Shown in pieces: positions 1 through 15,321 of a DNA stretch of 64,000 nucleotides (position 1 is the first letter of the stretch; every line of letters begins with the position of its first letter). The notes under the pieces are model-generated. The model was given only the letters and a program-made list of their open reading frames with translations, did no database searches and was not told the origin of the DNA. Position numbers and translations under genes: made by a program. The stretch covers positions 2,064,001-2,128,000 of the forward strand of contig NZ_CP097269.1 in NCBI RefSeq assembly GCF_028473645.1. Reading direction: 5' to 3'. Source of the stretch: Acidovorax sp. GBBC 1281 (lineage in GTDB: Bacteria > Pseudomonadota > Gammaproteobacteria > Burkholderiales > Burkholderiaceae_C).

Positions 1-8
1 CGCCTGCC

Positions 9-1628
9 ATGCAACACCAGAAAATCCTCATCCTCGATTTTGGCTCCCAGGTCACCCAACTCATCGCGCGACGAGTGCGCGAGGCGCATGTGCTCAGCGA
101 AGTGCACCCCTGCGATGTCACGGATGAATGGATCCGCGAATATGCCAAGGACGGCTCGCTCAAAGGGGTGATCCTCTCCGGCAGCCATGCCAGCGTGTAC
201 GAGGACACCACCGACAAGGCCCCGCAAGCCGTGTTCGAACTGGGCGTTCCCGTCCTGGGCATCTGCTACGGCATGCAGGCCATGGCCCATCAACTGGGCG
301 GCAAGGTCGAGGGCGGGCACAAGCGCGAGTTCGGTTTCGCGGCGGTGCGCGCACGGGGCCACACGGAGCTGCTGCGCGACATTGCCGACTTCACCACGGA
401 AGAAGGCCACGGCATGCTCAATGTGTGGATGAGCCATGGCGACAAGGTCACGGAATTGCCCCCGGGCTTCAAGCTCATGGCCAGCACCGAGAGCTGCCCC
501 ATCGCCGGGATGGCGGATGAAGAGCGCAAGTTCTATGCGGTGCAGTTTCACCCGGAAGTCACGCATACCGTGCAGGGCAAGGCGCTGCTGGAGCGTTTCG
601 TGCTCGGCATCTGCGGCGTGCGTCCCGACTGGATCATGGGGGACTACATCTCCGAAGCGGTCCAGAAAATCCGAGACCAGGTGGGCGACGAAGAAGTCAT
701 CCTGGGGCTGTCCGGCGGGGTCGATTCCTCGGTGGCCGCCGCGCTGATTCACCGCTCCATCGGCGATCAGCTGACCTGCGTTTTCGTGGACCACGGCCTG
801 CTGCGTCTGAACGAAGGCGACTTGGTCATGGAGATGTTCCAGGGCAAGCTGCATGCGAATGTCATTCGCGTCGATGCGAGCGATCTGTTCTTGGGCAAGC
901 TGGCAGGCGTGAACGACCCGGAAGCCAAGCGCAAGATCATCGGCGGCGAGTTCGTGACGGTGTTCAAGCAAGAGGCCGCCAAACTGAAGGCGGGCGACAA
1001 GGGCCACAAGGGCGCCACATTCCTCGCGCAAGGCACGATCTATCCCGATGTGATCGAGTCAGGTGGCGCGAAGAGCAAGAAGGCCGTCACCATCAAGAGC
1101 CACCACAACGTCGGCGGTCTGCCTGAGCAACTCGGCTTGAAGCTGCTGGAGCCGCTGCGCGATCTGTTCAAGGATGAGGTGCGCGAACTGGGCGTCGCCC
1201 TCGGGCTGCCGCCCGAAATGGTGTACCGCCATCCATTCCCCGGGCCGGGCCTGGGCGTGCGCATTCTTGGCGAAGTGAAGAAGGAATACGCCGATCTACT
1301 GCGGCGCGCCGACGACATCTTCATTCAGGAACTGCGCAATTTCATCGATCCAGGCACTGGCAAAAGCTGGTACGAGCTGACGAGCCAGGCTTTCACGGTA
1401 TTTCTGCCCGTGAAAAGCGTAGGTGTCATGGGCGATGGGCGCACGTACGACTACGTGGTGGCCCTGCGCGCCGTGCAAACCAGTGACTTCATGACTGCGG
1501 ATTGGGCAGAGCTGCCTTACGCGTTGCTCAAGAAAGTGTCCGGACGGATCATCAATGAGGTGCGTGGGATCAATCGAGTGACCTACGACGTCTCCAGCAA
1601 GCCGCCAGCGACGATCGAGTGGGAGTGA
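9..1628 (+). CDS. guaA: GMP synthase (glutamine-hydrolysing)
   Basis: Amidates XMP to GMP in the cytoplasm in the last step of de novo guanine nucleotide synthesis. The 539-residue protein is full length. An N-terminal class I glutamine amidotransferase domain has the nucleophile Cys86 in GICYGMQ and His181/Glu183 in FHPE. The ATP-pyrophosphatase domain carries the PP-loop SGGVDSS at 235-241, and the C-terminal dimerisation domain ends in TIEWE. The sequence resembles Burkholderiales GuaA. This is host chromosome: its 3' end is the presumed ICE attachment site, and the reading frame is intact up to the TGA, as expected when insertion regenerates the gene end. Confidence 0.98.
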
Positions 1629-1927
1629 AATCGGGTCCTTCGGGTACTATCGCCAGCAATCGAAAAGTCTTCGTAAGTCGTTGATTTAAAACGGTTTACG
1701 TCTCGAAGGCTATCGGTGGCTATCGCCGACCAGCGAAACGGTTTGGCGGTAAAGCTGACGGTAAGAACCGAGCCCGGATTCAGACCCGCTTGTTTACTAT
1801 CCAGTCTTTCTCGGTCTGGACGGTAAAAAGCTCGCTGAAAAGCTAGGTTTCATGCGGGTTCCAAGGCATCTTCAGGTCTCCTGACCCCTGACGGTAAAAA
1901 CCGTCATAACCAGGAGGTAAATCCTCG
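1629..1927. other. Presumed attL junction between guaA and the integrase
   Basis: A 299-bp non-coding stretch between the guaA stop and the integrase start. The guaA 3' end followed directly by a P4-type integrase is a known genomic-island arrangement. The first part holds paired TATCGCC/CTATCGG words (about 1648-1720), and the second part holds the GACGGTAA repeats annotated separately. The crossover core cannot be delimited, because no second copy of the guaA tail was recognised in the window to define attR. The call rests on context. Confidence 0.6.
1745..1905 (+). repeat. GRCGGTAA repeats, candidate integrase arm-binding sites
   Basis: The word GRCGGTAA occurs at 1745, 1757, 1819 and 1890. 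The last copy forms a perfect palindrome GACGGT-AAAA-ACCGTC (1890-1905) just upstream of the integrase ribosome binding site AGGAGGT at 1912-1918. Repeated short words between the crossover site and the int gene are typical of arm-type integrase sites or an autoregulatory operator. The function is inferred. Confidence 0.45.
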
Positions 1928-3184
1928 ATGCTTACCGACACTGCGCTACGCAACCTCAAGCCCAAAGCCGCGCCGTACAAGGCTTCTGACCGTGACGGCA
2001 TGTACGTGACGGTATCGACGGCAGGCACCATCGCTTTCCGTTACGACTACCGTCTCAATGGCCGCCGGGAGACACTCACTCTGGGCCGGTATGGCCCGGC
2101 CGGCATATCGCTCGCTATGGCGCGCGAAAAGCTGCTGGACGCCAAACGGGCCGTCGCCCGTGGCGAATCTCCCGCCCACGAAAAACAACGCGAGAAGCGG
2201 CGCCTGACCGCCGCGAAGACCTTCGGCGACATGACAGGCCGATGGCTGGTCGATGCGCGGATGGCCGAGACCACGCGCGCGATGCGCAAGAGCATCGTTG
2301 ATCGCGACATCCTGCCGGCGTTCAAGAACCGTCTTCTCGTCGAAATCAGTGCCGACGACCTGCGAGCCTTGTGCAACAAGGTGAAGGCCCGCGGCGCACC
2401 AGCTACGGCCGTCCACGTCCGCGACATCGTGAAGCAGGTCTATGCCTTCGCTATCCTCCACGGCGAAAAGGTGGACAACCCGTCCGATGGGGTGGGGGCC
2501 GCTTCGATCGCGACCTTCGTGCCCAAGGATCGCTCGCTGTCGCCGATGGAGATCCGGCTAATGTGTCGGCAGATGGAGTCGGTGGCCACGTACCCGACCA
2601 TCCGGCTGGCGCTGCGTCTGATTCTGTTGACGCTGGTTCGCAAGAGCGAACTCATCGAAGCGACGTGGGCCGAGATCGATTTCGAGAACGCAACCTGGAC
2701 GATCCCGAAGTCGCGGATGAAGGGGCGCAATCCACACGTCGTCTATCTGTCGCGCCAGGCCGTGGATATCTTCGTCGCGCTGCACACCTGCGCAGCGGGG
2801 TCCAAGTTCATCCTGCCTTCGCGTTACGACCCGGACCGTTGCATGTCGAAGGCGACGCTCAATCGGGTGACCCAAATCGTGTCGCAGCGGGCCAAGGCTG
2901 CAGGTCTGCCGCTGGAGTCGTTCACCGTCCACGACCTGCGTCGTACGGGATCGACGCTACTGAACGAAGTCGGCTTCAACGGCGACTGGATCGAAAAATG
3001 CCTTGCCCATGAAGACGGCCGCTCCTCGCGCGCGGTCTACAACAAAGCCGAGTACGCCGAGCCGCGGCGCCACATGCTGCAGGAGTGGGCCAACATGATC
3101 GATGCCTGGGTGGAGGGCGGCGCCTATGCGCCGGCACTGTTACCGAGCAACACGGTCGTGCCGATGCTGAGCGCATCGGTTTGA
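1928..3184 (+). CDS. int: P4-type tyrosine site-specific integrase
   Basis: Catalyses integration and excision at the guaA 3' end. The 418-residue protein starts with the DUF4102-type arm-binding domain (about 1-90, with LTLGRYGP), followed by a core-binding domain. The catalytic domain has Arg238 (LTLVRKSEL), His335/Arg338 (VHDLRRT), His361 (LAHEDG) and the probable nucleophile Tyr371 (AVYNKAEY). The start is fixed by a strong AGGAGGT nine bases upstream. All catalytic residues are present, so the enzyme looks functional, unlike several transfer genes of the same element. It is transcribed away from guaA. Confidence 0.95.
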   Translation: MLTDTALRNLKPKAAPYKASDRDGMYVTVSTAGTIAFRYDYRLNGRRETLTLGRYGPAGISLAMAREKLLDAKRAVARGESPAHEKQREKRRLTAAKTFGDMTGRWLVDARMAETTRAMRKSIVDRDILPAFKNRLLVEISADDLRALCNKVKARGAPATAVHVRDIVKQVYAFAILHGEKVDNPSDGVGAASIATFVPKDRSLSPMEIRLMCRQMESVATYPTIRLALRLILLTLVRKSELIEATWAEIDFENATWTIPKSRMKGRNPHVVYLSRQAVDIFVALHTCAAGSKFILPSRYDPDRCMSKATLNRVTQIVSQRAKAAGLPLESFTVHDLRRTGSTLLNEVGFNGDWIEKCLAHEDGRSSRAVYNKAEYAEPRRHMLQEWANMIDAWVEGGAYAPALLPSNTVVPMLSASV

Positions 3185-3192
3185 GCAAGTCT

Positions 3193-3235
3193 GCGTGGTT
3201 GTCAGTTGACAACCACGCGATTGATCCCCATACTG
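3193..3235 (+). promoter_or_regulatory. 26-bp palindromic operator overlapping a promoter
   Basis: A perfect inverted repeat with 12-bp arms and a 2-bp centre (3193-3204 / 3207-3218) lies between int and the next small gene. A consensus -35 TTGACA (3206-3211) sits inside it, followed after 18 bp by CATACT (3230-3235). A dimeric repressor bound here would block the -35 box, which fits autoregulation by the downstream HTH gene. Confidence 0.55.
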
Positions 3236-3245
3236 GAGACCATGA

Positions 3246-3521
3246 ATGGCCCGTCCCTCTCACCCGAAAAAGGAGGTTGAAGACGCGCTCAAGCATGCGG
3301 AAACGCAAGGCTGGCGCGTCACGGTTGGCGGCAGCCACGCATGGGGCAGGATCTACTGCCCCTACAACGACGACGAGTGCCGCTGCGGCGAGTTTTGCAT
3401 CACCAGCGTGTGGAGCACGCCGAAGAACCCCGGCAACCATGCCCGAGCGCTGCGGCGAGTCGTGGACAACTGCACGAGGCACAAGCAAGAAGACGAAGCT
3501 GGCTCTTCATCCGAGGAATGA
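3246..3521 (+). CDS. Small HicA-like protein, possible toxin
   Basis: A 91-residue basic protein. The N-terminal helix (EVEDALKHAETQGW), a GGSHAW segment with His31, a Cys-rich turn (CRCGEFC) and a C-terminal TPKNPGNHARALRRVV segment resemble the HicA double-stranded-RNA-binding-like fold, where a GSH histidine is catalytic. The similarity is by eye and weak. The start at 3246 has GGAG seven bases upstream; an overlapping ATG at 3242 reads only a 12-codon frame. It is followed 3 bp later by an HTH gene, an arrangement like a hicAB pair. Confidence 0.5.
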   Translation: MARPSHPKKEVEDALKHAETQGWRVTVGGSHAWGRIYCPYNDDECRCGEFCITSVWSTPKNPGNHARALRRVVDNCTRHKQEDEAGSSSEE

Positions 3522-3524
3522 CGC

Positions 3525-4049
3525 ATGGAATACACATTCACCTTGAAGTACCAGCTTGCCGAACAGGACAGCGATGCCGATGCACTGGTCGAGCGTTTGG
3601 GGGAGGCCGGTTGCGACGACGCCCTGGTGGGCCTCGGGCAGCCGGGCCGCTTGGCGTTGGAGTTCACCCGCAAAGCTGAAAGCGCGCAAGCCGCCGTACG
3701 CAGTGCGCTTGCCGATGTGAAGCGTGCCGTCCCCTCAGCGAAGCTGGTGGAGGCGGTACCAGATTTCGTCGGTCTGACCGATGTCGCTGAAATGATCGGC
3801 GTGTCGCGCCAGGCGATGCGTAAGCTGATGCTCTCCCATGCCGCCACCTTCCCCGCGCCCGCGCATGAAGGCAGCGCCGCCATCTGGCATCTTGCCGAGG
3901 TGTTGGGCTGGTTGGAAGTGAAGGGCGGCTACGCCCTTGAGCCGACGATGCTGGAGACGGCGCGTGCGACGTTGGAGGTGAATTTGACCAAGGAAGTGCA
4001 ACGACTGCCTGTCGCCGGGGCACGCGAACTGAAGCTGCTGATTGCCTAG
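3525..4049 (+). CDS. Helix-turn-helix protein, possible antitoxin/regulator
   Basis: A 174-residue protein with two parts. The N-terminal half (about 1-75, alternating charged strands and helices) is of unknown fold. The middle has a MerR/excisionase-like HTH (FVGLTDVAEMIGVSRQAMRKLML). It is separated from the HicA-like gene by 3 bp and shares its promoter region, so a DNA-binding antitoxin that represses the palindromic promoter is the simplest reading. The 3' end overlaps the convergent alpA-type gene by four bases. No membrane segment or signal is seen. Confidence 0.55.
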   Translation: MEYTFTLKYQLAEQDSDADALVERLGEAGCDDALVGLGQPGRLALEFTRKAESAQAAVRSALADVKRAVPSAKLVEAVPDFVGLTDVAEMIGVSRQAMRKLMLSHAATFPAPAHEGSAAIWHLAEVLGWLEVKGGYALEPTMLETARATLEVNLTKEVQRLPVAGARELKLLIA

Positions 4050-4429
4050 GCAGTTCGCGATCGAGCAGCCATGTCGCGCACCGGGCGGATCTTGCGCTGC
4101 CTGACATCCGGTCCGGTCGACTTGGCGACGCCGCCGGATCGAGAGGCTTGCTTGCGTGCCTCGATCCAGGCTTCGACTTCCTCTAAATCCCACACGACGC
4201 AGCGGGCGGTGAGATTAAACCGACGTGGAAATTCGCCGCGCTGCTCCATTTCGTAGATCGTCGTCTCTGCCAGAGGAACGATCTGGTGCAGTTCCTGGCG
4301 GCGGATTGTTCGACTGAAAGGCAATGGAAGCCTTGCACCAAACTGCGGCAGGTGCTCGTAGCCATCCGTGCCTGGATGCGGTGCGTGCCCCGGCTGAGAC
4401 GGCACCTTGTTTTCAGAGCTGTGTTCCAT
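4046..4429 (-). CDS. AlpA-family transcriptional regulator / excisionase-like
   Basis: A 127-residue protein whose core (LHQIVPLAETTIYEMEQRGEFP ... VVWDLEEVEAWI) is the AlpA/MerR-like winged HTH used by P4-type islands to activate integrase expression or act as an excisionase. The chosen start is the second Met (MEHSS); an upstream Met ten residues earlier is possible. The N-terminal 40 residues are low-complexity. It converges on the preceding HTH gene and probably belongs to the integration module. Confidence 0.8.
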   Translation of the reverse strand: MEHSSENKVPSQPGHAPHPGTDGYEHLPQFGARLPLPFSRTIRRQELHQIVPLAETTIYEMEQRGEFPRRFNLTARCVVWDLEEVEAWIEARKQASRSGGVAKSTGPDVRQRKIRPVRDMAARSRTA

Positions 4430-4764
4430 AGTGTCCAATCGATGCTTCCCAATATCCACAGGGAACCATGGTGGCTATTGACAATGATCCAAACAACCCG
4501 CTGAGGCTAAGCGGGGAGGGCACCATCCACGTCGCGCCTTTGAACGGGCGTTGCGCCGCGACCGAGGCCAGCATCAGGGTGTGATGGTGAAGGTCGAACT
4601 GATGATGCCGAAGACCAGAGTCAGAGTGATAAAGCGGCCAGCTTCGACTCGGGTACCTGCGCGGAAGAAGACTCCCAATCGCAGAAGTGCATGTTTCGTG
4701 ACGCAGCATGCCGGACAATGGTGCAAGCATTCAAATGATGTCGAACCTGAGAGAGGGGGTAGCC
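4430..4764. other. Intergenic region between alpA-like gene and protease cassette
   Basis: About 335 bp without a convincing gene. It should hold the divergent promoters for the AlpA-like gene (minus) and the protease cassette (plus). A TTGACA word lies at 4478-4483, but no good -10 follows. No strong inverted repeat was found. Confidence 0.5.
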
Positions 4765-6264
4765 ATGGCACAAGCGGCTCAGGGGAAATCACTGTTCGTG
4801 ATTCTTCCCAATCTGAATATCTGGAACGCCGATAACCCCGGGAACGGGCAGACATTTCTGCACTCGGCCAGTCGGCAACTGCACGCCAGTACGCGATCTT
4901 TTGTCGCGTTATCTCCTGGTAAGACCGACCTGGATGTCACGCTGGTCGATGAGGTCGCTCCAAGCGACACGGTGCTCGTGTCGATGGGGGAGCCCGAGCG
5001 GGTGAATCTGCTGCGTGCCCACCCTGGATTGCGTGTCGTGCCCGTTGGAGAGCTGGAGCCTTTGTGGCTTCAGCGCTTCAGGCTCGCCCCGGTTCTGGGC
5101 GTATCCGCAGGGCCCAAGGTGGTCTTGGAGGTCACGGTGACGGATGCGGCGACCGGTGCCGGCTTGCCTAACGTGGATGTCGTCGGGCTGACCGACCGCG
5201 CGGGCCGCATCGGCGCCAGCAACAAGACGAACAGCAAGGGCGTGGCCAAACTCATGTTCCCGGCCAGCACCGCGGTACTGGAATCCGTGGAGGCCTTTGT
5301 GCCCTCGGGCTACTGGCCCGGCCAAGCCACGGGGGTTGCGATGTCGAATGGCGCCGTCACCTTGTCCTGTGCGCCCATCGACCTGGCCGTGCAGGATGTG
5401 CGTGGGTATTTTGGCTTTGAAGGGGCGGATACCGACGGGCAGGGCGTTAAGGTCGGTGTGGTCGATACCGGCGTTAGCAAGCACCCGGACCTGCGCTTTG
5501 CCAAGGGACTCAATGTCGTCAAGGGCGAGCCTGCCAGGAACTTCTCCGATCTTCTCGGCCACGGTACTCATGTGGCCGGGATCATTGCTGGGCGAGGTCA
5601 GCCTGGTAAGGGCGTGCGCGGCGTCGCACCTGGGGTCGATCTGCACGTCTACCGTGTGTTCGGCAAAGGGCAGGAGAAGGCGCTGTCGTTCAACATCGCC
5701 AAAGGCATTCGGCAGGCCGTGGACGACGGCTGCGACCTCATCAACCTGTCGTTGGGTGGCGAGGCCGATGTGCCGGACGTGCTCCGAGAAATCCACCGGG
5801 CACGAGCCATGGGAGTGCTGTGCATCGCCGCCGCCGGCAACGACTACCGCAGCGCGGTGAACTACCCTGCGCGCTACAGCCCAGTGATGGGCATCTCTGC
5901 CTTTGGCCGCAAGGGCACCTGGCCGGCGGGTGCGGCACAGGACCTCGAGGTGCTTAAACCCCTGGGAACCGACAAGAAGAATTTCGTGGCGTCGTTCAGC
6001 AACGTCGGCAGCGAAGTCGACCTGGTGGGACCCGGTGTCGGCGTGGTGTCGACCTATCCTGGTGGCTATGCTGTCATGGATGGGACTTCGATGGCCTGTC
6101 CTGTGACGTCCGGCGCGCTGGCCCGGCTCCTGGGGCGCAACCCCAAGATACTGGGGATGGATCGTGATCAAAAGCGCTCGGATGCCATCGTCAAACTGGC
6201 GCTCAATGCCACGCAACTCATGGGTTTCGGTGCGAAATTTGAGGGCGCAGGCCTTTTGATGTAG
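4765..6264 (+). CDS. Subtilisin-like (S8) serine protease, apparently cytoplasmic
   Basis: A 499-residue protein. The N-terminal ~110 residues are unknown and are followed by an Ig/carboxypeptidase-regulatory-like beta domain (about 118-180, VTDAATGAGLPNVDV). The C-terminal peptidase S8 domain has the full triad: Asp234 (GVVDTGV), His266 (GHGTHVAG) and Ser442 (DGTSMACP), with oxyanion Asn359 (AAGND). There is no signal peptide or transmembrane segment, which is unusual because most S8 enzymes are secreted. The start at 4765 has a purine-rich GAGAGGGGG; an in-frame Met lies 19 codons upstream. It is followed after 12 bp by a small propeptide-like gene and then by a nuclease gene, suggesting regulated intracellular proteolysis. 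The natural substrate is unknown. Confidence 0.9.
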   Translation: MAQAAQGKSLFVILPNLNIWNADNPGNGQTFLHSASRQLHASTRSFVALSPGKTDLDVTLVDEVAPSDTVLVSMGEPERVNLLRAHPGLRVVPVGELEPLWLQRFRLAPVLGVSAGPKVVLEVTVTDAATGAGLPNVDVVGLTDRAGRIGASNKTNSKGVAKLMFPASTAVLESVEAFVPSGYWPGQATGVAMSNGAVTLSCAPIDLAVQDVRGYFGFEGADTDGQGVKVGVVDTGVSKHPDLRFAKGLNVVKGEPARNFSDLLGHGTHVAGIIAGRGQPGKGVRGVAPGVDLHVYRVFGKGQEKALSFNIAKGIRQAVDDGCDLINLSLGGEADVPDVLREIHRARAMGVLCIAAAGNDYRSAVNYPARYSPVMGISAFGRKGTWPAGAAQDLEVLKPLGTDKKNFVASFSNVGSEVDLVGPGVGVVSTYPGGYAVMDGTSMACPVTSGALARLLGRNPKILGMDRDQKRSDAIVKLALNATQLMGFGAKFEGAGLLM

Positions 6265-6276
6265 TATGTTTCTGCC

Positions 6277-6516
6277 ATGAGCCGTTTTGTTCTTCTCTAC
6301 CAAGGTACCAGCGATCCTTCGCGTCAGGAGGAGCGCTCGGTCGTGTCCGCCCTGAAGACGGCGAAAGTAGTTGACCGTACGCCAGGTTCTATTCTGGTGG
6401 AGGGGCCCGAATCCGAAGTGGCGTCCGTGGTTCAACAGTGTCAGAACTGGACATTCTCTCCGGTGCGCAGCGTAGGGGTCTCCCCGCCGCACAAACGCGT
6501 CAAATTGACGGCTTAG
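6277..6516 (+). CDS. Small protein, possible stand-alone protease propeptide/inhibitor
   Basis: A 79-residue soluble protein starting 12 bp after the protease stop. The pattern of an N-terminal strand (SRFVLLYQG), helix (ERSVVSALKT), strand (GSILVEGP), helix (SEVASVVQQC) and final strand (FSPVRSVGV) resembles the inhibitor I9 fold that chaperones and inhibits subtilisins, here encoded separately. This is a by-eye fold guess, not a family match. A short hairpin terminator follows, so protease and small protein form one transcription unit with reduced read-through into the nuclease. Confidence 0.55.
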   Translation: MSRFVLLYQGTSDPSRQEERSVVSALKTAKVVDRTPGSILVEGPESEVASVVQQCQNWTFSPVRSVGVSPPHKRVKLTA

Positions 6517-6528
6517 GCTGGATCCACA

Positions 6529-6550
6529 AGCCCGGGAAACCGGGCTTTTT
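6529..6550 (+). terminator. Rho-independent terminator inside the protease-nuclease cassette
   Basis: Stem AGCCCGG / CCGGGCT with GAAA loop followed by TTTT, 13 bp after the small gene. It lies between the protease pair and the nuclease and would lower nuclease expression relative to the upstream genes. Confidence 0.7.
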
Positions 6551-6570
6551 CACGGGCGGAGGACATCAAG

Positions 6571-7506
6571 ATGGTCAAAAAAGCGAAGCTCACCCCCCGT
6601 TTTCGGTTCACGCCGGTCCAAGAGCTGGATGCACAGCGGGTGCGCCTGACCCCGGATCCGGTCGAGAGCTACGAGGACCGGACCGGCTACGCGCCGGATT
6701 TCATCGATCCGGCCATCCTCATCGAACTGCCGCGCCTGGACGCTGCAGCCAAACGCGATGCGGTGTCCTTCACGTGGAAGGGGGCCAAGACGCACGTACT
6801 GGATTACACCCACTTTTCCACGGCGGTCTCGAAATCGCGACGCATGCCCATCTTCAGCGCCTGCAACATCGATGGCGCCAAGGCCAAGACGGTGGACCGG
6901 GGTGATATCTGGAAATTCGACCCACGCATTCCCCAGGAATTCCAGATCCTCAAGGAGGTGTACGGCAATGAGCGTGATGGCTACTTCAGCCGTGGGCACA
7001 TGACGCGGCGCAAGGATCCCGATTGGGGCTCCAAGGCTGTGGCTTTGCTGGCGGACGCCGACACCTTCCACGCGACGAATGCCGCGCCCCAAGTGCAGCA
7101 TTTCAACGCGGGGCTATGGGGTGGCATCGAAGACTACATTCTGGCCAACACGCAAAGCGACAAGATGCGGGTCAGTGTGTTCACGGGACCGGTCTTTGCC
7201 GCTAACGATCCGGTGGTGAAGGGGATCAAGATTCCGGTGCGGTTTTGGAAGGTCGTGGCCTTTCTCCACGACGAGACGGGCGAACTCACAGCCACAGGCT
7301 ATGTGGCTTCGCAAGCCAAGGCCGTGGCGGAGCTCAAACCCACGTTCGTCTTCGGTGACTTCGAGAACCAGCAGCGTCCACTGTCTGCCATTGAGAAGAT
7401 GGCAGGACTGTCGTTCGGCGCCCTTACGGCGCGGGACGTCCTAGCTGAGGCAGGAGAGGCCTTTGCGGCATCGCTTCGCGATGTTCGCGACATCATGCTG
7501 GCATGA
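6571..7506 (+). CDS. DNA/RNA non-specific endonuclease (NUC family)
   Basis: A 311-residue relative of NucA/EndA-type beta-beta-alpha-metal nucleases. The core motif is SRGHM (140-144), with the general base His143 retained but the usual first Asp of DRGH replaced by Ser. The metal-binding segment TNAAPQVQHFN (Asn170) and the conserved WGGIEDYI follow. There is no signal peptide, so it would act inside the cell, where it would be toxic unless controlled. It has about 105 N-terminal residues before the catalytic core, which could be a regulatory or cleavable region. GGAGG precedes the start at 6571. Its position after a protease gene suggests proteolytic control (inference). Confidence 0.88.
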   Translation: MVKKAKLTPRFRFTPVQELDAQRVRLTPDPVESYEDRTGYAPDFIDPAILIELPRLDAAAKRDAVSFTWKGAKTHVLDYTHFSTAVSKSRRMPIFSACNIDGAKAKTVDRGDIWKFDPRIPQEFQILKEVYGNERDGYFSRGHMTRRKDPDWGSKAVALLADADTFHATNAAPQVQHFNAGLWGGIEDYILANTQSDKMRVSVFTGPVFAANDPVVKGIKIPVRFWKVVAFLHDETGELTATGYVASQAKAVAELKPTFVFGDFENQQRPLSAIEKMAGLSFGALTARDVLAEAGEAFAASLRDVRDIMLA

Positions 7507-7608
7507 CGCCCGCCGGGTCGGCTGAAGTCGACAATATGACAGCTGTGAAAGATGTCAGATCCTGTTCTCAATTGCGGAGGCTGGACGGCATCGGTGTTGT
7601 GTTGCACC

Positions 7609-8004
7609 ATGCAGAACATGAAGCAAGCTGACATTCCTTACTTTGATGCACTGACCCCCGAACAAATCGGTCGTGTCCAGACGCTGGTTGATGAGGGTTT
7701 GACGCTGGAGCAACGCTGGCTTCTCTATGGCGAACTCTATGGTGCTGGTGCCGCAGGCGGAGACCCGCTTACACGTGTGAAGGATGCTGTGCTAGACCGG
7801 CTTTCTGAACTTCAGGCCCACCTGTGCTCGGATGCCGGTTTACTTAAGGTGGCGGCGTCGCCCGCAACCGGTGTTGCGCTGAGCTTGGCGTTCGCGGTCA
7901 CCGGCAAGCTGGTCAGTGCCAAGTTCCAGGACGTGGACGTCGTGCAACTGGGCGTACTGATTGCCCAGGCGGGGCTGTTCGCCATTTGCTCCGGCAAGCT
8001 TTGA
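7609..8004 (+). CDS. Hypothetical protein of the protease-nuclease cassette
   Basis: About 131 residues from the chosen Met (MQNMKQADIPYF); starts at 7552 and 7618 are also possible, and no clear ribosome binding site decides. The N-terminal part is helical (LTPEQIGRVQTLVDEGL), and the C-terminal part is rich in Ala, Val and Leu (GVALSLAFAVTGKLV, LGVLIAQAGLFAIC), forming one or two amphipathic or membrane-associated helices. It is not recognised as a known family. The small helical size resembles effector-associated adaptor domains found beside proteases in conflict systems. Its 3' end overlaps the next gene by 19 bp, so the two are translationally coupled. Confidence 0.55.
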   Translation: MQNMKQADIPYFDALTPEQIGRVQTLVDEGLTLEQRWLLYGELYGAGAAGGDPLTRVKDAVLDRLSELQAHLCSDAGLLKVAASPATGVALSLAFAVTGKLVSAKFQDVDVVQLGVLIAQAGLFAICSGKL

Positions 8005-9269
8005 GATCGCACGACGGTTGTGCTTTCGCTGTGGAACTGCGTGCGCAATGGCACGCCGTCGTGCACTCCTTCGATGGCAACGTGGCGCATTCCGACGTGC
8101 GGGAAATCCTGGCGCGCGCCAGTTGGGACGACAAGGCGTTCGATGACCAACTTGTGGGGCTCCGCCAGGGGCTGGCTGACCTGCATGAGCTGGGGATTTT
8201 GGTGCGCTACGAATGGGCGCTGTGCCGGCAGGCTTACGACTTTATTCCGGAATCGCTCTATCAGCATGTGCTGCTCAGCACGTTGTGCGGCCTGTGGCAA
8301 GCCAGCGAGGACAACCTGCGCCGCCCGGAGGCCTTCGAGCGGATCGTTGTGCGCCAGCCCCACGGCTGGCTCATCAGCAACCGGCGTGCCGAGCCGGTGG
8401 CACTGGAGATCGCGCAGAGCCAGACCGGGTGGATCCAGATTCCATTCGCCTGGGACGACCTGCTCCAATTGTCCCTCGAAGGTCTGCTGGATGTCGTGGG
8501 TTTCGACCGTGGCCGCTCGCTGGGCGAACTGTGCCAAGCGTTGGAGGGCGCCGACGAGAAGGGCGCCGACTGGAGCCGGGCACATTCGAGGTGGAATGGC
8601 CTGTTTGCACGCACTCTGCTCGGGCGGCTGCGCGTGCCCCACCTCGAAGAAGCCAACCAAGTCGAAGCCCTGTGCGCCAGTGCTCCCGTCTTGTCGCCGT
8701 TTATCGCGCACCAGCAGGGGGTGGTGGGGCAAGATTTGGGCAACACGTTGGCCCACCTGGCCAAGGTCTTCACTATCGCGCATGAAGCTGCGCACATCGT
8801 CCGAAAGCGGCAGGGCATGGTGTTCCAGAGCATCGAAGATGCGGAAGTAGACGCCGACAGCATGGCCGCGTCGGCGCTTTGGAATCACCGTCTTGCCATC
8901 CATTGCGAGGTGAGGCACGGCCAGGGTTTCGAAGCGCTCTGGTTTGCGGGTGGGCTTTCCTTCTACTTCGGTCTGCTGGTGTTCGGCAACCTCCTACGCT
9001 GCGTCGGGGAGCCGGCCGGGGCCAACGACCCGCGTACCGCGCAGGCGGCCGCACAGCACCAACGCACCGTGCTAAGGATGCGAGCTTGGCAGGAGCACGT
9101 CATGACGATCTGCGCGAGCGCCTTGAAACACGGCGACAACACGCCCCTGATCAGCGTCCAGGCCCAGCACAAGCTGATGCGCTGGATGGTCCGCTATTGC
9201 AATGCGATGCTGGATTACGGGCGTATCGTGGTCCCCATTGCGGTCCGCCAGGCCTCGATTCCCCTGTAA
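7986..9269 (+). CDS. Zincin-type metalloprotease-like protein
   Basis: A 427-residue protein if the TTG at 7986 is used; a GTG at 8031 is an alternative. The N-terminal 250 residues are unrecognised, mainly helical and acidic. At 262-300 there is a clear gluzincin signature: HEAAH (266-270) in FTIAHEAAHIV, with downstream glutamates in SIEDAEVDADSMAA that could give the third zinc ligand. The hydrophobic stretch about 318-340 (FAGGLSFYFGLLVFGNLL) may be buried or membrane-associated. It is the last plus-strand gene of the cassette. A second protease beside an S8 enzyme and a nuclease suggests a processing cascade; substrate unknown. Confidence 0.6.
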   Translation: MLRQALRSHDGCAFAVELRAQWHAVVHSFDGNVAHSDVREILARASWDDKAFDDQLVGLRQGLADLHELGILVRYEWALCRQAYDFIPESLYQHVLLSTLCGLWQASEDNLRRPEAFERIVVRQPHGWLISNRRAEPVALEIAQSQTGWIQIPFAWDDLLQLSLEGLLDVVGFDRGRSLGELCQALEGADEKGADWSRAHSRWNGLFARTLLGRLRVPHLEEANQVEALCASAPVLSPFIAHQQGVVGQDLGNTLAHLAKVFTIAHEAAHIVRKRQGMVFQSIEDAEVDADSMAASALWNHRLAIHCEVRHGQGFEALWFAGGLSFYFGLLVFGNLLRCVGEPAGANDPRTAQAAAQHQRTVLRMRAWQEHVMTICASALKHGDNTPLISVQAQHKLMRWMVRYCNAMLDYGRIVVPIAVRQASIPL

Positions 9270-9405
9270 TTCCCCATGTCATATCGCTGCCCCTAGTCAA
9301 TGCCAACGGAAAAACGGAAGGTCACAAGCATGGAGCACGGCCACCAGGGCCTGGAGACTTTCTGCAAGTCATCCATTACGCCCACGGATTCTTAGAATCA
9401 GTTCC

Positions 9406-9978
9406 ATGAAGCTGATCGACCGCTACCTGCCCGACCACCACTTCGCAGAGGAACACAGTCGATTCATTCCAGCCCCGCCAGCGTGTGTACTCGATGTTGT
9501 AGATCGGCCTGATGTGGTGGACGACCCGATCGCTCGCAGCCTGATTGCGTTGCGCGAGGCGCCCAATCGCCTCGCTGGTCGACTGGGCTTTGCGTCCAAT
9601 CTCCAACATCGTCCATCGTTCGGGTTTGCCAACTTCACCTTCCTAGGGCGAGATGGCGACCGTGAACTGGCCTACTGCTTGGCTGGCCGCTTCTGGCAAT
9701 CGGACTACGGACTCGTCGCGGTGGCCGATGCGACAGCCTTCTCTGCATTGAACCCATCTGGCATCGCAAAGCTGGTGATGAACTTCACGGTGGAGGCTGA
9801 GGGGGCTGGTACCCGACTGACTACCCGGACCCGCGTCTGCTGCGGCGACGATGCGACCAAGCGCAGCTTCACGCCCTATTGGTTGTTGATCAGGCCGGCG
9901 AGCGGGTTGATCCGGCGGCGTCTGCTGAAGCGCGCGCATGACGCGGCAATTCGGTCGTTGATGATGACCCCTTCTTAA
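9406..9978 (+). CDS. Hypothetical protein, possibly START/SRPBCC-like
   Basis: A 190-residue soluble protein beginning MKLIDRYLP. The start of the conserved part (FAEEHSRFIPAPPACVLDVV) and the following beta-rich segment resemble the START/polyketide-cyclase-like fold (beta strand, helices, then antiparallel strands). No catalytic motif can be named. The 3' end overlaps the convergent DUF2274 gene by 89 bp, which suggests the two were joined by recombination. It may be unrelated to the protease-nuclease cassette. Confidence 0.55.
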   Translation: MKLIDRYLPDHHFAEEHSRFIPAPPACVLDVVDRPDVVDDPIARSLIALREAPNRLAGRLGFASNLQHRPSFGFANFTFLGRDGDRELAYCLAGRFWQSDYGLVAVADATAFSALNPSGIAKLVMNFTVEAEGAGTRLTTRTRVCCGDDATKRSFTPYWLLIRPASGLIRRRLLKRAHDAAIRSLMMTPS

Positions 9979-10180
9979 ACCCTCGATCCCCCGCCATGAA
10001 GGCCTCTAGCATGTGCGGGATCAACGTCGCCACATCTACTGCCTCGCCATAGGTCTGCGTGTACAGCGTCGCATAGCGGTCGAGATCGGACTTCAAACTG
10101 ACGGCGCACGCGAAGGCCAGCTTGACGGTCTCCGTCTTCGGCAACGGCCCTAGCCGCAACTTCTTGGTCGACGTGCTCAT
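9890..10180 (-). CDS. DUF2274 family protein
   Basis: A 96-residue protein at the 3' end of the trb operon. The conserved part is the first 70 residues (KKLRLGPLPKTETVKLAF ... IPHMLEAFMAGDRGF), a family always found after trbI in Tn4371-like elements and probably a small ribbon-helix-helix-type protein. The start overlaps the trbI stop (ATGA). The last ~25 residues are Ser/Ala/Arg-rich and lie opposite another coding gene, so the natural C-terminus may have been replaced at a cargo-insertion junction. Confidence 0.8.
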   Translation of the reverse strand: MSTSTKKLRLGPLPKTETVKLAFACAVSLKSDLDRYATLYTQTYGEAVDVATLIPHMLEAFMAGDRGFKKGSSSTTELPRHARASADAAGSTRSPA

Positions 10181-11469
10181 TGCGATCTTTTCAGTTGGAA
10201 GAACATCGGCTGGTAAACCCGCAACACCAAATCGCGATTCACGATGATCCGCACCGGCAAGCCAGGCCGGCTCGTCAACGTCGGCTGGATGTTCATGTTG
10301 CGCCGGGTCATCTCTTGCCCGGTCTGGTTGACTGAGTCCTGCAGGCTGTCGCGCCCCGCTATGAGGATGCGGTTGCCATCTGTGCGGTTCTCCGGGGCGG
10401 CCAACTCGGCGCCAACGCCCAGCAGCGTCGTCAGCGCAGCGCCGGCCACGATGCGATCCCAGTGCCAATCGACTCCATCCTCCAAGCCGGCGTAGCCGGC
10501 AGGGTCTGAACCCACCAGGTTGTCGAGCTGGAACGAAGACGTGTCCGGCAGGATCACCCGGTTCCACACCACTTGCGTGCGGCTCTGCCCGTAGCTCACC
10601 TGGCTGTTGTACCTACCCATCAGCCGCGCACCTTGCGGGATCAGCAGGAATTTGCCAGTGGCCGTGTCGTAGACCGGCTCCGTCACCGTGGCGATCACGT
10701 CGCCCGGCAGGTCCGACTTGATGCCGGTGACCAGCGCTGCCGCGATCACCGTTCCGGCCATCACCTGGTACGGCGAAGCAGGCATCTTCAGAGAACCGGA
10801 GTTACGCGTTTGTGTGGAGCTGGCTTTGGACACAAACGCCTCCTTCTGATCCTGCCGGTTCTGCGCCACCGTCGGGTCAGTGGGCTGCGCAGCCGTCGAG
10901 ACCGGGCCTGCTGCCATCGGATCGAACGCGGTGTTCGCAGCTTGCCCCGCAATAGGCGCGGCCTGCACCGACGGCGCAGCAGCCACCCTCGGCCCACCCG
11001 ACGAACGGAAGAAGACCGACGAAGCCGCTGCTTCTTCGGCCTCCTTCAAGCGCGCCAGACGCGCTGCCTCGGCCGGATCGTGCCCCGGCTGCGCGTAGCC
11101 AGGCCCCTGGGCCTGCTGCTCGGCCCTTAGGATCGGCCCGCCCAGATCCCCCGGAAGCGGTGCTCCCAACTGCGGCACCGCCGGTGGCAGCTTCGAGTAG
11201 TCGGCCGGAAGTTGATTCAGCCCTTCGGAGCGCGACACCCGGTCCACGTTGTACAGCTCAGCCGGTTCGCTTGTATTGCGCCGCTGCGGCTGCAGCGACC
11301 ACATCAAGGCCCCGAGCACGGCCACCGACAGCCCACCCAGCAGGGCCGCCAGCATGCGTCGGTTCAGGCGCGTGACCGCGCGCGGCTGGGCGCGCAGCGT
11401 GACGTTCTCCGGCGCCACCTTGGGCGGAGTGTCCGGCACCGGAACCTCTACAGTGATGTCCTGGTCCAT
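10177..11469 (-). CDS. trbI: Type IV secretion protein TrbI (VirB10-like)
   Basis: A 430-residue protein linking the inner and outer membrane parts of the mating channel. It has a short cytoplasmic Pro-rich start, a single transmembrane segment (about 40-58, MLAALLGGLSVAVLGALM), a low-complexity Pro/Ala periplasmic linker and the conserved beta-barrel domain (about 225-425, VMAGTVIAAALVTGIKSDLPG ... LIPQGARLMGRY). The frame is complete. It starts 2 bp after the trbG stop and overlaps the DUF2274 start. Confidence 0.95.
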   Translation of the reverse strand: MDQDITVEVPVPDTPPKVAPENVTLRAQPRAVTRLNRRMLAALLGGLSVAVLGALMWSLQPQRRNTSEPAELYNVDRVSRSEGLNQLPADYSKLPPAVPQLGAPLPGDLGGPILRAEQQAQGPGYAQPGHDPAEAARLARLKEAEEAAASSVFFRSSGGPRVAAAPSVQAAPIAGQAANTAFDPMAAGPVSTAAQPTDPTVAQNRQDQKEAFVSKASSTQTRNSGSLKMPASPYQVMAGTVIAAALVTGIKSDLPGDVIATVTEPVYDTATGKFLLIPQGARLMGRYNSQVSYGQSRTQVVWNRVILPDTSSFQLDNLVGSDPAGYAGLEDGVDWHWDRIVAGAALTTLLGVGAELAAPENRTDGNRILIAGRDSLQDSVNQTGQEMTRRNMNIQPTLTSRPGLPVRIIVNRDLVLRVYQPMFFQLKRSQ

Positions 11470-11471
11470 GG

Positions 11472-12482
11472 TCAGTTCCTCCGCGCGCCGGTGATCCCGT
11501 CCGTGCGTTCGATGCGCACCACGTCACCCTTGTCTGCGCCCAAGCGGAGTTCGGCCGCGCCGAACAGCCGGTCCACGATGTAGTACGGCGACCGGAAACG
11601 GTAGTTCACGAGCTGCCCATCCCCTTGCGCGCCGATCACGAACAGCGGCGGCAGCTCGCCCTGCGCGATGCCGCCGGGGAACTGGATGTAGACCTTCTCG
11701 CCGTCGTCGAAGGCGCGCAGCGGCTTCCACGACGGTTCGCTGCCCGAGATCGCGTAGCGGAAGCGGATCTTCTCCAGCGACAGGCCCGCATCGACCGGCG
11801 TGGCTGCGCTGGCCGCCTGCGCATGCCGTTGCAAGGCCAGCATGCGATCCTTCGGATAGTCCCACGACACCGACGCCATCCACGCCTTCTCGGTCGAGGT
11901 CAGCTCGATCAGGTAGGTGCGCCGGCTGGTGGTGATGACGAGATTGGTCTTGAGGTTGCTGCGCGTGGGTTTGACCAGCACGCTCACGCGCAGATCGGCC
12001 CCCGTGCCGCTGGAAGTGTCGCCAACGATCCAGCGCACCGTATCTCCGGCGGCGACCGTCACGAGTTCCTCGCCGGGCTGGAGCGACACCACCGTCACAC
12101 GGCCCGGGCTCGCATAGACCTGGTACAGCGCACCGTCCGTGTACGGCCAGACCTGGATCGCATTGACGTAGCCCTCGCGCGTCGGCGCCATGCGCGCCTC
12201 CTCGTTGGCACGGGAGACACGCACTTTCTCATCCACCGGCTCTGGCGTGGCGACGGCTTGCTGCTCCAGCGGCACGGGCTTGAGTTGCGCCGGCAGTGCC
12301 AGCGGCTCCGGCACGGCCACCACCTCGATGGGCGTGGGCGGCTCAGGCATCGCCTGCGCCGCCACCGGCTCGTCCAGCGTGATGGTCGGAGGTGGCTTGC
12401 CCTGTGAGGCGCAGCCGGCGAGCGTGACGGCTGCAGCCATCATCAAAGATGGCCATACGTGAATGCACAAAGACGATTTCAT
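11472..12482 (-). CDS. trbG: Type IV secretion protein TrbG (VirB9-like lipoprotein)
   Basis: A 336-residue outer-membrane-complex subunit. The N-terminus is a lipoprotein signal with lipobox LAGC, then a Pro/Val-rich linker, then the CagX/VirB9 beta domains (VNAIQVWPYTDGALYQVYASPGRVT; later GYRLS-type strands ending FGAAELRLG). It would pair with TrbI and the TrbH/VirB7 function; the lipobox may make a separate VirB7 unnecessary. The start overlaps the trbF stop. Confidence 0.95.
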   Translation of the reverse strand: MKSSLCIHVWPSLMMAAAVTLAGCASQGKPPPTITLDEPVAAQAMPEPPTPIEVVAVPEPLALPAQLKPVPLEQQAVATPEPVDEKVRVSRANEEARMAPTREGYVNAIQVWPYTDGALYQVYASPGRVTVVSLQPGEELVTVAAGDTVRWIVGDTSSGTGADLRVSVLVKPTRSNLKTNLVITTSRRTYLIELTSTEKAWMASVSWDYPKDRMLALQRHAQAASAATPVDAGLSLEKIRFRYAISGSEPSWKPLRAFDDGEKVYIQFPGGIAQGELPPLFVIGAQGDGQLVNYRFRSPYYIVDRLFGAAELRLGADKGDVVRIERTDGITGARRN

Positions 12483-13182
12483 GGCTTGGTTCCTTCGGAA
12501 GAATCGAGTTCACGGCTCCACGACAAGCCGTTGACGTAGAGGCCCAGGGGATTGCGGCGCAGCTTCTCTTCGGTGCGCGGCGGCTGCAGGACGATGGAGA
12601 TCACCGCCGTCCAGCGCTCGAGCCCGGCGGCCGCGCCGTTGACGTAGCGCCGCTCGGTCCATCGCGCCTGGAACGAGTTGTCGCTGGCCCGCACGACGCT
12701 GGTGACCTGCACCGTTACCGACTCCTTGCCGACGCGGGTGAAGGGGTCGTTGGTGCGCGCGTACTCGTTGAGCACCGCCGCGCCGCGGTCGGTGGTCACG
12801 TCGTAGGCGTCGAGCCAGTTCTGCCGCACGACGATGGGGTCGATGGAGAGGGACCGCACCAGCGTGATGAAGCGCGCGAGTTGATGGGCCGTCTGCGCAT
12901 CGGTGGGTTTGTACGGCGTGGCGGCCTCGCCAACCGCACGCACTTGGCCGGCGTTGTCCACTTCCACCACGTAGGGCGTGACGATGACTGCGCCGAGCGC
13001 CAGACCAGGCCGCCGGCCATCAGCAGGGCCAGCGCCAAGCAGCCGAACGCCATCAGCCGCCAGTTCTTCGCCTGCACGCGGGACGAGCCGATGCGGTCGT
13101 CCCAGACCTGTTCGGCGGATTGGTAGGGGGTGGCGGGCTGCGGCGTGTCCCCGTAGCGCACCTGAGGTCGTTTGAATCGCAT
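12479..13182 (-). pseudogene. trbF: trbF (VirB8-like), interrupted by a single-base frameshift
   Basis: The start frame from 13182 (MRFKRPQVRYGD) reads through the transmembrane segment (LMAFGCLALALLMAGGLVW) to AQS and then leaves the family sequence. The expected continuation VTPYVVEVDNAGQVRAVG and the rest of the periplasmic VirB8 domain, ending at 12479, lie in another frame. The break is at about 12981-12988, where one extra base would restore QSxVTPYVVEVD. TrbF is an essential assembly scaffold, so a true frameshift would abolish secretion. A sequencing error cannot be excluded. Confidence 0.85.
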
Positions 13183-13194
13183 GAAGTGTTCTCC

Positions 13195-14583
13195 TTAGGA
13201 ATCCGCGGGATCGCGCAGGCTGGGCGCGGAGCCCGCGCCACCGCCGTCCCCGCCGCGCAGCGTGTGGGCGACGGTCGACGCGGCGTGGCTGATCTGCTGT
13301 TTGCGCTGCAGCCGTTTGGCCCAGCCGGGCTGGGCGGTTGCGCTGGAGGGAGCAGCTGATGAACCCGCCGAGGCGGCGTCCGCAGAAGGACTGCTGGCGC
13401 CCGAAGGCGCCGCCGCATCCCCCACGAAACTCGCCACGCGGTCCTTCACTGCCTTGGCACCCGAGGTGACGCGTTTCCCGGCGGCATTGGCGCCGCTCTT
13501 GGCGACGTTGGCAAAGCCAGCCCCGGCTGCACGGACACCGCTTTCGCCCGAGGCAGCAGCGCCTGCTTGGTAGGCCGACTTCGCACCACTCGCCATGGAA
13601 CTGGCCGAACGCGCTGCAGCAGCGCCGCCGCCAATGGCCGCACGTGCAGCGCCGGGTGCCATGCGTGCACCCGCCGCGACGGCCGAGCCCGCACCCGCCA
13701 CCGCCGCACCGCCGGCAACGGCCAAGCCGGCCGCACCCAAGGCGGTACCCGCCACCGCACCGGCACCGAGTTGTGGCGCACCGGACACCAGCCCCGTCGC
13801 GATCCCCGGTCCGAAGATTCCCAGGCCCAGCATCGACAGCGCCGCCAGCATGATGACCAGCGCGTGGTCGATGGAAGGTTCCGTGCCGGGCGGCGCCCGG
13901 AACTCTGCGAAGAGCCCTGTACCGATGCCCACGATCACGGCCAGCACCAGCACCTTGATGCCTGAAGACACGACGTTGCCCAGCACCTTCTCTGCCAGGA
14001 ACGAGGTCTTGTTCCACAGCGCGAAGGGAACGAGCACGAAGCCCGCGAGCGTGGTCAGCTTGAACTCGATCAGCGTGACGAAGAGCTGCACCGCCAGCAC
14101 GAAGAAACTCACGATCAACACCAGCCAGGCCAGGAACAGCACCACGATGGCGTCGATGTTCGCTAACACCTCGGGAAACCCCGCCATGTCGCTGATCTGC
14201 GCCAGGATCGGCGCCCCGGCGTCGATGCCGACCTTGGCCAGTCGGCCCGGCTGCAGGAACTCGGCCTGGTTAATGGCCGAACCCGAGGCCAGCAGCCCCA
14301 GTCCCGAGAACGACCGGAACACGATGCTGGCCAGCATGTTGAAGTTGCCGATGATGTAGGCGAAGGCGCCCACGTACAGCACCTTCTTGATCAGCTTGCC
14401 CATGACGTCGTCGCCGCCACCACTGGCATGGTTCATGGCCCAGAATAGGCCGGCGAGCGTCATGTCGATCACCACCAGCGTGGCTGTGAGGAACGCCACC
14501 TCACCCCGCAGCAGGCCGAAGCCGGAGTCGATGTAGGTCGAGAAGACGATGAGGAAGCGGTCGATGACGGCGACGTCGTTCAT
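13195..14583 (-). CDS. trbL: Type IV secretion protein TrbL (VirB6-like)
   Basis: A 462-residue polytopic inner-membrane channel component. It has several transmembrane segments in the first 280 residues (FLTATLVVIDMTLAGLFW, LVLIVSFFVLAVQLFVTL, VLVLAVIVGIGTGLF, LVIMLAALSMLGLGIFG), then a long Ala/Gly/Ser-rich low-complexity C-terminal tail (about 290-462), as usual for TrbL. The frame is intact. It sits between trbJ and trbF with spacers of about 10 bp. Confidence 0.93.
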   Translation of the reverse strand: MNDVAVIDRFLIVFSTYIDSGFGLLRGEVAFLTATLVVIDMTLAGLFWAMNHASGGGDDVMGKLIKKVLYVGAFAYIIGNFNMLASIVFRSFSGLGLLASGSAINQAEFLQPGRLAKVGIDAGAPILAQISDMAGFPEVLANIDAIVVLFLAWLVLIVSFFVLAVQLFVTLIEFKLTTLAGFVLVPFALWNKTSFLAEKVLGNVVSSGIKVLVLAVIVGIGTGLFAEFRAPPGTEPSIDHALVIMLAALSMLGLGIFGPGIATGLVSGAPQLGAGAVAGTALGAAGLAVAGGAAVAGAGSAVAAGARMAPGAARAAIGGGAAAARSASSMASGAKSAYQAGAAASGESGVRAAGAGFANVAKSGANAAGKRVTSGAKAVKDRVASFVGDAAAPSGASSPSADAASAGSSAAPSSATAQPGWAKRLQRKQQISHAASTVAHTLRGGDGGGAGSAPSLRDPADS

Positions 14584-14592
14584 GACCGTTCC

Positions 14593-15321
14593 TCAGTTTC
14601 CGTAGAAGTCGACGGCTTGCGGCGTGTACGGAGTGCCCGTCCCGATGAAACGGCGGCGCACCTCTCGCGCACGCTCCTGCACCGCGATCACGCGCGCCTG
14701 TTCGAGCGCGGCGGCCCGGTCCTGCGTGATCTGCAGCTGCTGCGCCTGGATAGCCTGCCGGGCTTGCAGGGCCAGCAATTGGTTCGTCGCCTGCGTGGCC
14801 TGCAAGGCACCCACAGCCGACTGGCTGCGGTTCACCAGATCCGTCAGCGTGGATTCGTCAGAGGCGAAGTTCTGCACCGCCTGCGACTGCACCTTGGTGG
14901 CCGTGCGCAGTGCTTCGAGCGAGTTGCGCCAGCGCGAGCGCGCATCGGTCGCCATCTGCGTGCCGGAGATCGCCGCCGTGTACGACTCAGGATAGAGCCG
15001 CTGGAACTCGGCCTCCATCTGCGAGACGTTGAAGGCCAGGCCTTGCGCCTGCTGAATGAGTTGGTTGGTGGCCGACAGCGCGGCGCGCAGTTCATTCAAG
15101 GCGCTGAAGTCCAGGCTGGTCAGATTCTTCGCCTGGTTCATCAGCGACTGCGACTGGTTCTGCAACTGCTTGATCTGGTTGTTGATCTGCTCGAGCGTGT
15201 TGGCCGCAGTCATGATGTTCTGCGCGAGATTCGTGGGGTCGATCACGACCCATTGGGCGTGCGCGACTGGCATGCCGCCAATCAGCGCTGCGGCGGCAAG
15301 GGCGAGCAAGGTCTTCTTCAT
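14593..15321 (-). CDS. trbJ: Type IV secretion protein TrbJ (VirB5-like)
   Basis: A 242-residue periplasmic pilus-tip or assembly protein. It has a signal peptide (MKKTLLALAAAALIGGMPVAHA) and long coiled-coil helices rich in Gln/Asn (LEQINNQIKQLQNQSQSLMNQ). The last residues RRRFIGTGTPYTPQ closely match the tail of the EexN-like lipoprotein encoded at 21885-22133. It overlaps the trbE stop. Confidence 0.93.
   Translation of the reverse strand: MKKTLLALAAAALIGGMPVAHAQWVVIDPTNLAQNIMTAANTLEQINNQIKQLQNQSQSLMNQAKNLTSLDFSALNELRAALSATNQLIQQAQGLAFNVSQMEAEFQRLYPESYTAAISGTQMATDARSRWRNSLEALRTATKVQSQAVQNFASDESTLTDLVNRSQSAVGALQATQATNQLLALQARQAIQAQQLQITQDRAAALEQARVIAVQERAREVRRRFIGTGTPYTPQAVDFYGN

Follow-up and report, generated by a model that had tools for sequence, protein, structure and literature searches.

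The window analysed here is a 64 000-nucleotide stretch (G000:C1:2064001-2128000) of the 5.7 Mb genome of Acidovorax sp. GBBC 1281, and it includes five successive open reading frames (ORFs) on the plus strand, at 4708-9269 in the ORF listing, that an earlier note had proposed as an undescribed defence or conflict cassette. The genes named there, an S8 protease with a complete triad, a small propeptide-like protein, an intracellular-type DNA/RNA non-specific nuclease, a helical protein and a HEAAH zincin, are present in that order, though the start given for the cassette, 4765, lies inside the S8 protease ORF, which begins at 4708. In all five ORFs, as in the neighbouring genes that were measured, GC content is higher at the third codon position than at the second. 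The first three genes, listed as core genes in Table 1, form a set found in the same order and orientation in other genomes, and it is this set that may constitute a functional system.

Table 1. Positions of the cassette genes and their features in the window (aa, amino acids)
Feature	Position	Strand	Basis and remarks
S8 (subtilisin-type) protease, 518 aa	4708..6264	+	Pfam, PADLOC, active-site residues; core gene 1
Propeptide-like N-terminal domain of S8 protein, ~residues 28-119	4789..5064	+	Range transferred by alignment from model of relative L090
Beta-rich domain of S8 protein, ~residues 132-226, between propeptide and catalytic domain	5101..5385	+	L090-model strands (residues 111-193), transferred by alignment
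S8 catalytic domain (D253, H285, N378, S461)	5431..6261	+	Pfam and residues
Small protein, 79 aa, propeptide-like fold, flexible C-terminal tail	6277..6516	+	Predicted fold; core gene 2
GC-rich hairpin then T run (terminator-like), between small gene and nuclease gene	6528..6550	+	Similar hairpins in near relatives L023-L028
Endonuclease_NS (EndoG/EXOG-like) nuclease, 311 aa	6571..7506	+	Pfam PF01223, E 1.1e-45; core gene 3
RxGYxxxF segment directly before nuclease domain	6679..6702	+	Pattern in 87/90 nuclease rows, with either protease partner
Helical ORF, 150 aa, single hydrophobic stretch near C-terminus	7552..8004	+	Hydropathy; outside conserved core
Zincin-like ORF, 427 aa, HEAAH at residue 266, TTG start	7986..9269	+	Motif; outside conserved core

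The product of the first gene matches Peptidase_S8 in Pfam (PF00082, E 1.9e-45) and the PADLOC model 'subtilase' (E 3.8e-38), and its active site is that of peptidase family S8, with an intact triad (D253, H285 and S461) and the oxyanion residue N378. No hydrophobic N-terminus or signal peptide was found in a simple hydropathy scan. Residues 3-493 of a fused model of a relative (L090) match the pro-subtilisin fold, with the propeptide of the S8 protein itself sitting at the inhibitor site, and the S8 protein of this relative appears, in the predicted structure, to have a docked propeptide of its own. The beta-rich domain may serve in regulation or as a sensor.

For the small protein, no Pfam family exceeded the cut-off and nothing significant was found among the sequences of solved structures. 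Its identity is taken from its fold, length and position. In the predicted model, the strands and helices follow one another as in subtilisin propeptides (beta-alpha-beta-beta-alpha-beta), a fold match that ties with other ferredoxin-like folds, and the protein is presumed to act in trans as an inhibitor of the S8 protease. POIA1 and the subtilisin propeptides (inhibitor family I9) differ from it in that the window protein has no sequence match and is encoded by its own gene beside a protease apparently carrying its own propeptide. Docking of the small protein on the S8 protease, tried via the L090 fused model, was unsupported, with the inhibitor site already occupied by the protease's own propeptide and the tail of the small protein unordered.

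The third gene encodes an Endonuclease_NS nuclease for which the nearest solved chains are EndoG and EXOG. Residues H143, N179 and E187, whose counterparts are catalytic in Serratia nuclease, are found in all 90 nuclease rows of our alignment, the conservation of the H143 region among 80 of the loci being partly by construction via the scan patterns FSRGHMTR and RM[CP][FIL][FYV]SA[VC]N. The hydropathy scan found no hydrophobic N-terminus or export signal in this protein either, in line with its earlier description as intracellular-type. A second Endonuclease_NS-type protein in the same genome (L002; G000:C1:5290701-5291156) has a signal-like N-terminal stretch and is of the ordinary secreted kind. 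Hairpins similar to the one preceding the nuclease gene occur in the near relatives L023-L028, and the window hairpin is absent from the listing of a consensus scan. The RxGYxxxF segment is a candidate gate or cleavage region of the nuclease.

Conservation of the core genes

Related nuclease loci were sought using a five-sequence nuclease alignment as query; of the 100 loci that passed, the 80 best were retained, and protease partners were assigned by profile scans of six-frame translations. In these 80 loci, an S8 gene is directly upstream of the nuclease in 30, a trypsin is fused to the nuclease in 44, a trypsin is in a separate frame in one, and neither was detected in five. A serine protease therefore accompanies the nuclease in 75 of the 80. 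The earlier note had pointed to conserved co-occurrence as the test of its proposal, and to a protease and nuclease always apart as the outcome that would speak against it. They are not always apart, as the S8, small protein and nuclease genes have the order and strand of the window in all 30 S8 loci, which are from Beta- and Alphaproteobacteria and an Acidobacterium. The helical ORF and zincin are not part of this conservation (see below).

A small ORF of approximately 80 residues immediately follows the S8 gene in 30 of 30 S8 loci. Using tblastn at E 0.01, the window small protein detects 20 of these, and the other ten (nine Variovorax and one Acidobacterium) were assigned by position, length and alignment. 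The ten closest loci, at 65-79 % nuclease identity, are in Leptothrix, Vitreoscilla, Bordetella, Paracidovorax, Schauerella, Achromobacter and Glomeribacter records, and in the two Glomeribacter loci, which are on short contigs, no S8 gene was seen. In the Schauerella fraxinea locus (L029, 6054-7551) the S8 gene is split over two frames with the small ORF and nuclease frame open.

The S8 and trypsin partners are largely alternative. Under the rule used to assign partners, none of the 44 trypsin-fused nucleases has the S8 gene upstream. However, strict exclusion does not hold, as four of the 44 trypsin loci (L040, L065, L097 and L102) carry S8-type genes of another make, although no match to the window S8 protein in its N-terminal half was seen in any of them; in three of the 44, the sequence preceding the nuclease frame is <1000 bases long. 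The standing of a protease-gated reading is not altered, because the presence of an S8-type gene next to a trypsin-nuclease is itself a point in favour of protease partners. In L102 (Bosea caraganae, 4682-8849) the S8-type protease is directly upstream of the trypsin-nuclease fusion, perhaps a further protease-nuclease combination. In addition, pTiCFBP5877 and a Rhizobium plasmid have S8, ~80 aa and nuclease genes in the window order, and there the nuclease is trypsin-fused. Among the other arrangements seen, the Bradyrhizobium plasmid pB41S5 (L005, 3978-8642) encodes a trypsin-nuclease fusion and, after it, two more proteins, one EAD5-trypsin and the other trypsin-like, an arrangement similar to the NucA-trypsin system predicted in the literature and discussed below, and a Pirellulaceae locus (L041, ~6195-8801) includes two trypsin-like stretches within one nuclease polypeptide.

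In a midpoint-rooted tree of the 90 nuclease rows, for which the bootstrap had not converged, the S8 type forms one clade of 36 rows (31 with S8, including the window, and five with no detected protease; support 99/88). The 54 rows outside this clade comprise 50 trypsin-fused nucleases, the two plasmid rows with both proteases (pTiCFBP5877 and the Rhizobium plasmid), one whose trypsin lies in another frame and one lacking both. Read most simply, the tree indicates that a separate S8 and small protein pair replaced the fused trypsin. As the two plasmid rows fall in the trypsin part of the tree, the pair appears to have joined a trypsin-nuclease a second, separate time on rhizobial plasmids. The nuclease of a Rhizobium leguminosarum GLR17 plasmid (L004, 480-5942), which is not fused to a protease and has genes for a CHAT protein and a SIR2-pYEATS protein upstream, groups with the S8 clade.

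The three genes have diverged in parallel. Over 32 loci, the pairwise-distance correlations are 0.988 for S8 and small protein, 0.944 for S8 and nuclease, and 0.939 for small protein and nuclease (maximum of 0.34 in 2000 permutations). The S8 and small protein genes are the tightest unit, with the nuclease a frequent partner.

Remaining genes, host element and distribution

The zincin-like ORF starts before the end of the helical ORF (7986 versus 8004). No convincing family match for the helical ORF was obtained in Pfam, PADLOC and PHROGs scans, and the zincin assignment rests on the HEAAH motif, the Pfam M78 match being under its cut-off (E 0.22). In the 97 loci examined, tblastn at E 0.01 gave no match to either ORF. 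The zincin was found in one of 399 genomes of the order, namely its own, and a plasmid search gave no match; in a sample of 398 genomes of the phylum it is again convincing only in its own genome. Four weak matches in that sample (E 0.002-0.008) are partial, the matching frames lack HExxH, and the sole HExxH in a long frame at those loci is on another strand. Because the zincin has no relatives at related loci, the two proteases that had been noted beside the nuclease are reduced to one. The helical ORF and zincin are treated here as separate cargo, seemingly an orphan pair with no convincing relative of the zincin, and a system of five genes was rejected because these two are not common to related loci.

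The cassette is part of a conjugative element, with the integrase to one side of it and the transfer genes to the other. Upstream are a gene that we take to be guaA-like (9-1628), a tyrosine integrase gene (1928-3184) and, on the opposite strand, a gene for an AlpA-like regulator, the latter two identified by Pfam scan. Downstream are conjugation genes for TrbI, TrbG and TrbF, named from the annotation of matching plasmids, together with one for a TraG-like coupling protein. The cassette is cargo rather than backbone, since trbI-trbG matches of >1000 bits are present in 33 of 200 genomes of the family and the nuclease, at E 1e-40, in one of the 200, its own genome. Beside the integrase gene, 3246-3521 and 3525-4049 (+) are strong matches to the PADLOC candidate defence pair PDC-M06A/M06B (E 1.1e-53 and 3.3e-80); the term PDC-M06 was not found in the open-licence PMC literature. 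A phage origin for the cassette was considered and rejected, as pattern matches to the zincin and nuclease in viral contigs were not confirmed by tblastn and PHROGs matches were weak or only to generic protease or nuclease families.

The S8 gene family is also sparse, with matches at E 1e-45 in three of the 399 order genomes and three of the 398 phylum genomes, both counts including its own genome. In two plasmid loci known defence genes adjoin the S8 and small protein pair: in Cupriavidus sp. EM10 (L019, 2024-7531) IetAS is directly upstream of an S8 gene and a small ORF, assigned by position only, with no nuclease, and in Rhizobium leguminosarum plasmid pRL9b4 (L018, 11-7609) a TmtA gene (PADLOC E 0) is directly upstream of the pair. 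These neighbours were found among eight hand-picked proteins that were scanned.

Comparison with described systems

The closest described relative is the NucA-trypsin conflict system ('System 3') predicted by Kaur et al. (eLife 2020; PMC7159879), in which a nuclease would be deployed by proteolysis and, in some cases, S8 domains flank NucA in one polypeptide. The window likewise has an Endonuclease_NS, i.e. NucA-type, nuclease with a constant serine-protease partner. It differs in having a separate S8 gene, with a separate small propeptide-like gene between, and no trypsin: the five proteins have no Trypsin match and a home-made Trypsin_2 profile found none in window bases 1-17000 at E 1e-4. 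The System 3 section of that paper mentions neither a propeptide-like protein encoded on its own nor an S8 version lacking trypsin. A trypsin-Endonuclease_NS fusion is also on record from Fusobacterium (PMC2605481).

Tuck et al. (Science 2025; PMC12799240) describe MBL pro-nucleases that are proteolytically activated by a paired trypsin or caspase (HamMAB, AVAST, canu), and the cassette resembles these pairs in the recurrent joining of protease and nuclease genes, their nuclease being a gated pro-enzyme activated by its partner. However, theirs is an MBL-fold nuclease with a trypsin-like protease, fused to a defence enzyme, or a caspase, whereas the window combines an EndoG-like Endonuclease_NS nuclease with a free Peptidase_S8 protease and a propeptide-like third gene. 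The main text of that paper includes neither 'subtilase' nor 'IetS', and 'subtili' is found in a species name only. In the Caulobacter CARD-NLR-like system LypABC (PMC13236601), LypC is a fusion of a trypsin-like peptidase and an endonuclease domain, the latter aligned in that paper with NucA and EndA, and the trypsin-nuclease relatives of the window nuclease are fusions of this type. LypC works with an NLR pair, however, and no subtilisin is mentioned in the LypABC main text.

The anti-phage system IetAS also uses an S8 protease, and as noted above one S8 and small protein pair adjoins it. However, the window S8 protein matches the PADLOC IetS models only weakly (E 1.7e-5) and no IetA ATPase match was found among the nine cassette and flank proteins scanned. 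The claim that the system is undescribed holds in part. The exact S8, propeptide and Endonuclease_NS set was not found in titles or abstract starts of the open-licence PMC literature, a source that misses many papers, but NucA-trypsin conflict systems had already been predicted (PMC7159879).

Protease gating as the best reading

The three genes are best read as encoding a pro-nuclease gated by a protease, together with a propeptide that inhibits this protease in trans; the set would be a variant of the NucA-trypsin conflict system predicted earlier. That it is a suicide nuclease carried on a conjugative element and freed by the S8 protease is the most probable of the explanations considered, though only a tentative one. 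The conserved gene set, the parallel divergence, the intact active-site residues and the lack of an export signal by hydropathy are observed and the folds are predicted, whereas inhibition by the small protein, low expression and cleavage of the nuclease, activation by invasion and a role in defence are inferred. By the mechanism proposed here, the S8 protease would be a cytoplasmic zymogen, kept in check in cis by its own N-terminal propeptide and in trans by the small protein. The nuclease would be made at a low level, given the terminator-like hairpin before its gene, and be held inactive by its N-terminal segment. A signal of invasion, read by the beta-rich domain or via loss of the small inhibitor, would free the protease, which would then cut the nuclease N-terminus, and the nuclease would degrade nucleic acids, killing or arresting the cell. 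A more specific history, possible but doubtful, would make this a new class of protease-gated immunity: in a single step, a subtilisin zymogen under cis and trans propeptides would have taken the place of the trypsin in an older trypsin-EndoG-like system, and the resulting self-contained three-gene suicide switch would have spread through proteobacteria and beyond. The trans propeptide would be its antitoxin and might also sense infection, being released or degraded when the cell is attacked.

A number of observations weigh against protease gating of the nuclease. Five of the 80 nucleases (L031, L032, L050, L063 and L099; in L032 only ~760 bases are available upstream, too short to judge protease absence) and that of plasmid locus L004 have no detected S8 or trypsin. 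Conversely, the S8 and small protein pair is found with no nuclease in seven plasmid loci (L013-L019, two of them near-copies; 6 kb flanks) and two genomes (L103 and L104; 1.5 kb downstream seen), and hence has a use of its own, while no small protein was seen at L105 and L106, the two S8 hits from the phylum sample. In the S8 tree, from which L029 with its split gene was left out, the loci lacking the nuclease are partly nested among nuclease-bearing ones. The distance correlations are weak support alone, as co-inherited adjacent genes correlate without working together. In the L090 model the inhibitor site is filled by the S8 protein's own propeptide, not the small protein, whose tail is of low confidence when modelled alone and disordered in the fused model. 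In LypC, the endonuclease residues are dispensable for lysis and the peptidase is needed (PMC13236601). No sensor was identified for the three-gene module. Finally, proximity to other defence genes, which the earlier note had proposed to check, extends to the IetAS and TmtA genes beside two plasmid pairs, but PADLOC models at 1e-10 match just seven of 125 neighbour proteins (from 17 of the 30 S8-type loci), a count made without matched control genes.

The main rival, which we judge rather improbable, is that the S8 protease and small inhibitor are a working unit with another target and the nuclease is an independently regulated second effector travelling along. It would account for the pairs lacking a nuclease, for the S8-small correlation being the highest, and for the terminator-like hairpin that, in the window as in L023-L028, lies between the pair and the nuclease gene; loss of the nuclease inside Paracoccus is also the simplest reading of the S8 tree. 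Against it, the pair and a fused trypsin alternate beside one nuclease family, with two apparently separate associations of the pair, and S8 and nuclease distances are correlated, though linkage alone can yield such a value.

Less likely again is an accessory module in which the protease regulates a nuclease for degradation of incoming DNA or nucleic-acid turnover under stress, rather than for suicide. The module core includes neither a sensor nor an NTPase gene, certain members of the nuclease family have no protease beside them, and the commonest Pfam families among the 125 neighbours of S8-type loci are concerned with transport and regulation (first 25 of 134 families). However, conflict accounts better than housekeeping for the rare, sporadic distribution and for the siting on this conjugative element and on plasmids.

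Exported proteins include some with Endonuclease_NS domains and some with S8 domains, and a small partner gene adjoins, raising the question of whether these are antibacterial toxins exported as secretion-system effectors with an immunity protein. This is very unlikely, as the S8 protein and nuclease have no hydrophobic N-terminus or long leader and the propeptide-like small protein is the conserved partner of S8 also where the nuclease is absent. Least probable of all is a single five-gene system in which the zincin and helical protein would act as a sensor or provide a second step of activation. Although the genes are contiguous on one strand and these two overlap, neither is found at the 97 loci examined, nor the zincin on plasmids or in the other order genomes searched.

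If the protease-gated reading is true, a third protease class, together with an EndoG-like nuclease and a stand-alone propeptide, would show the same activation logic invented or rebuilt with other parts, in a compact three-gene system in which the control step, a zymogen with a trans inhibitor, is open to direct testing. An evolutionary handle on which protease cuts what is also provided by the nuclease family, beside which S8 and trypsin have been exchanged.

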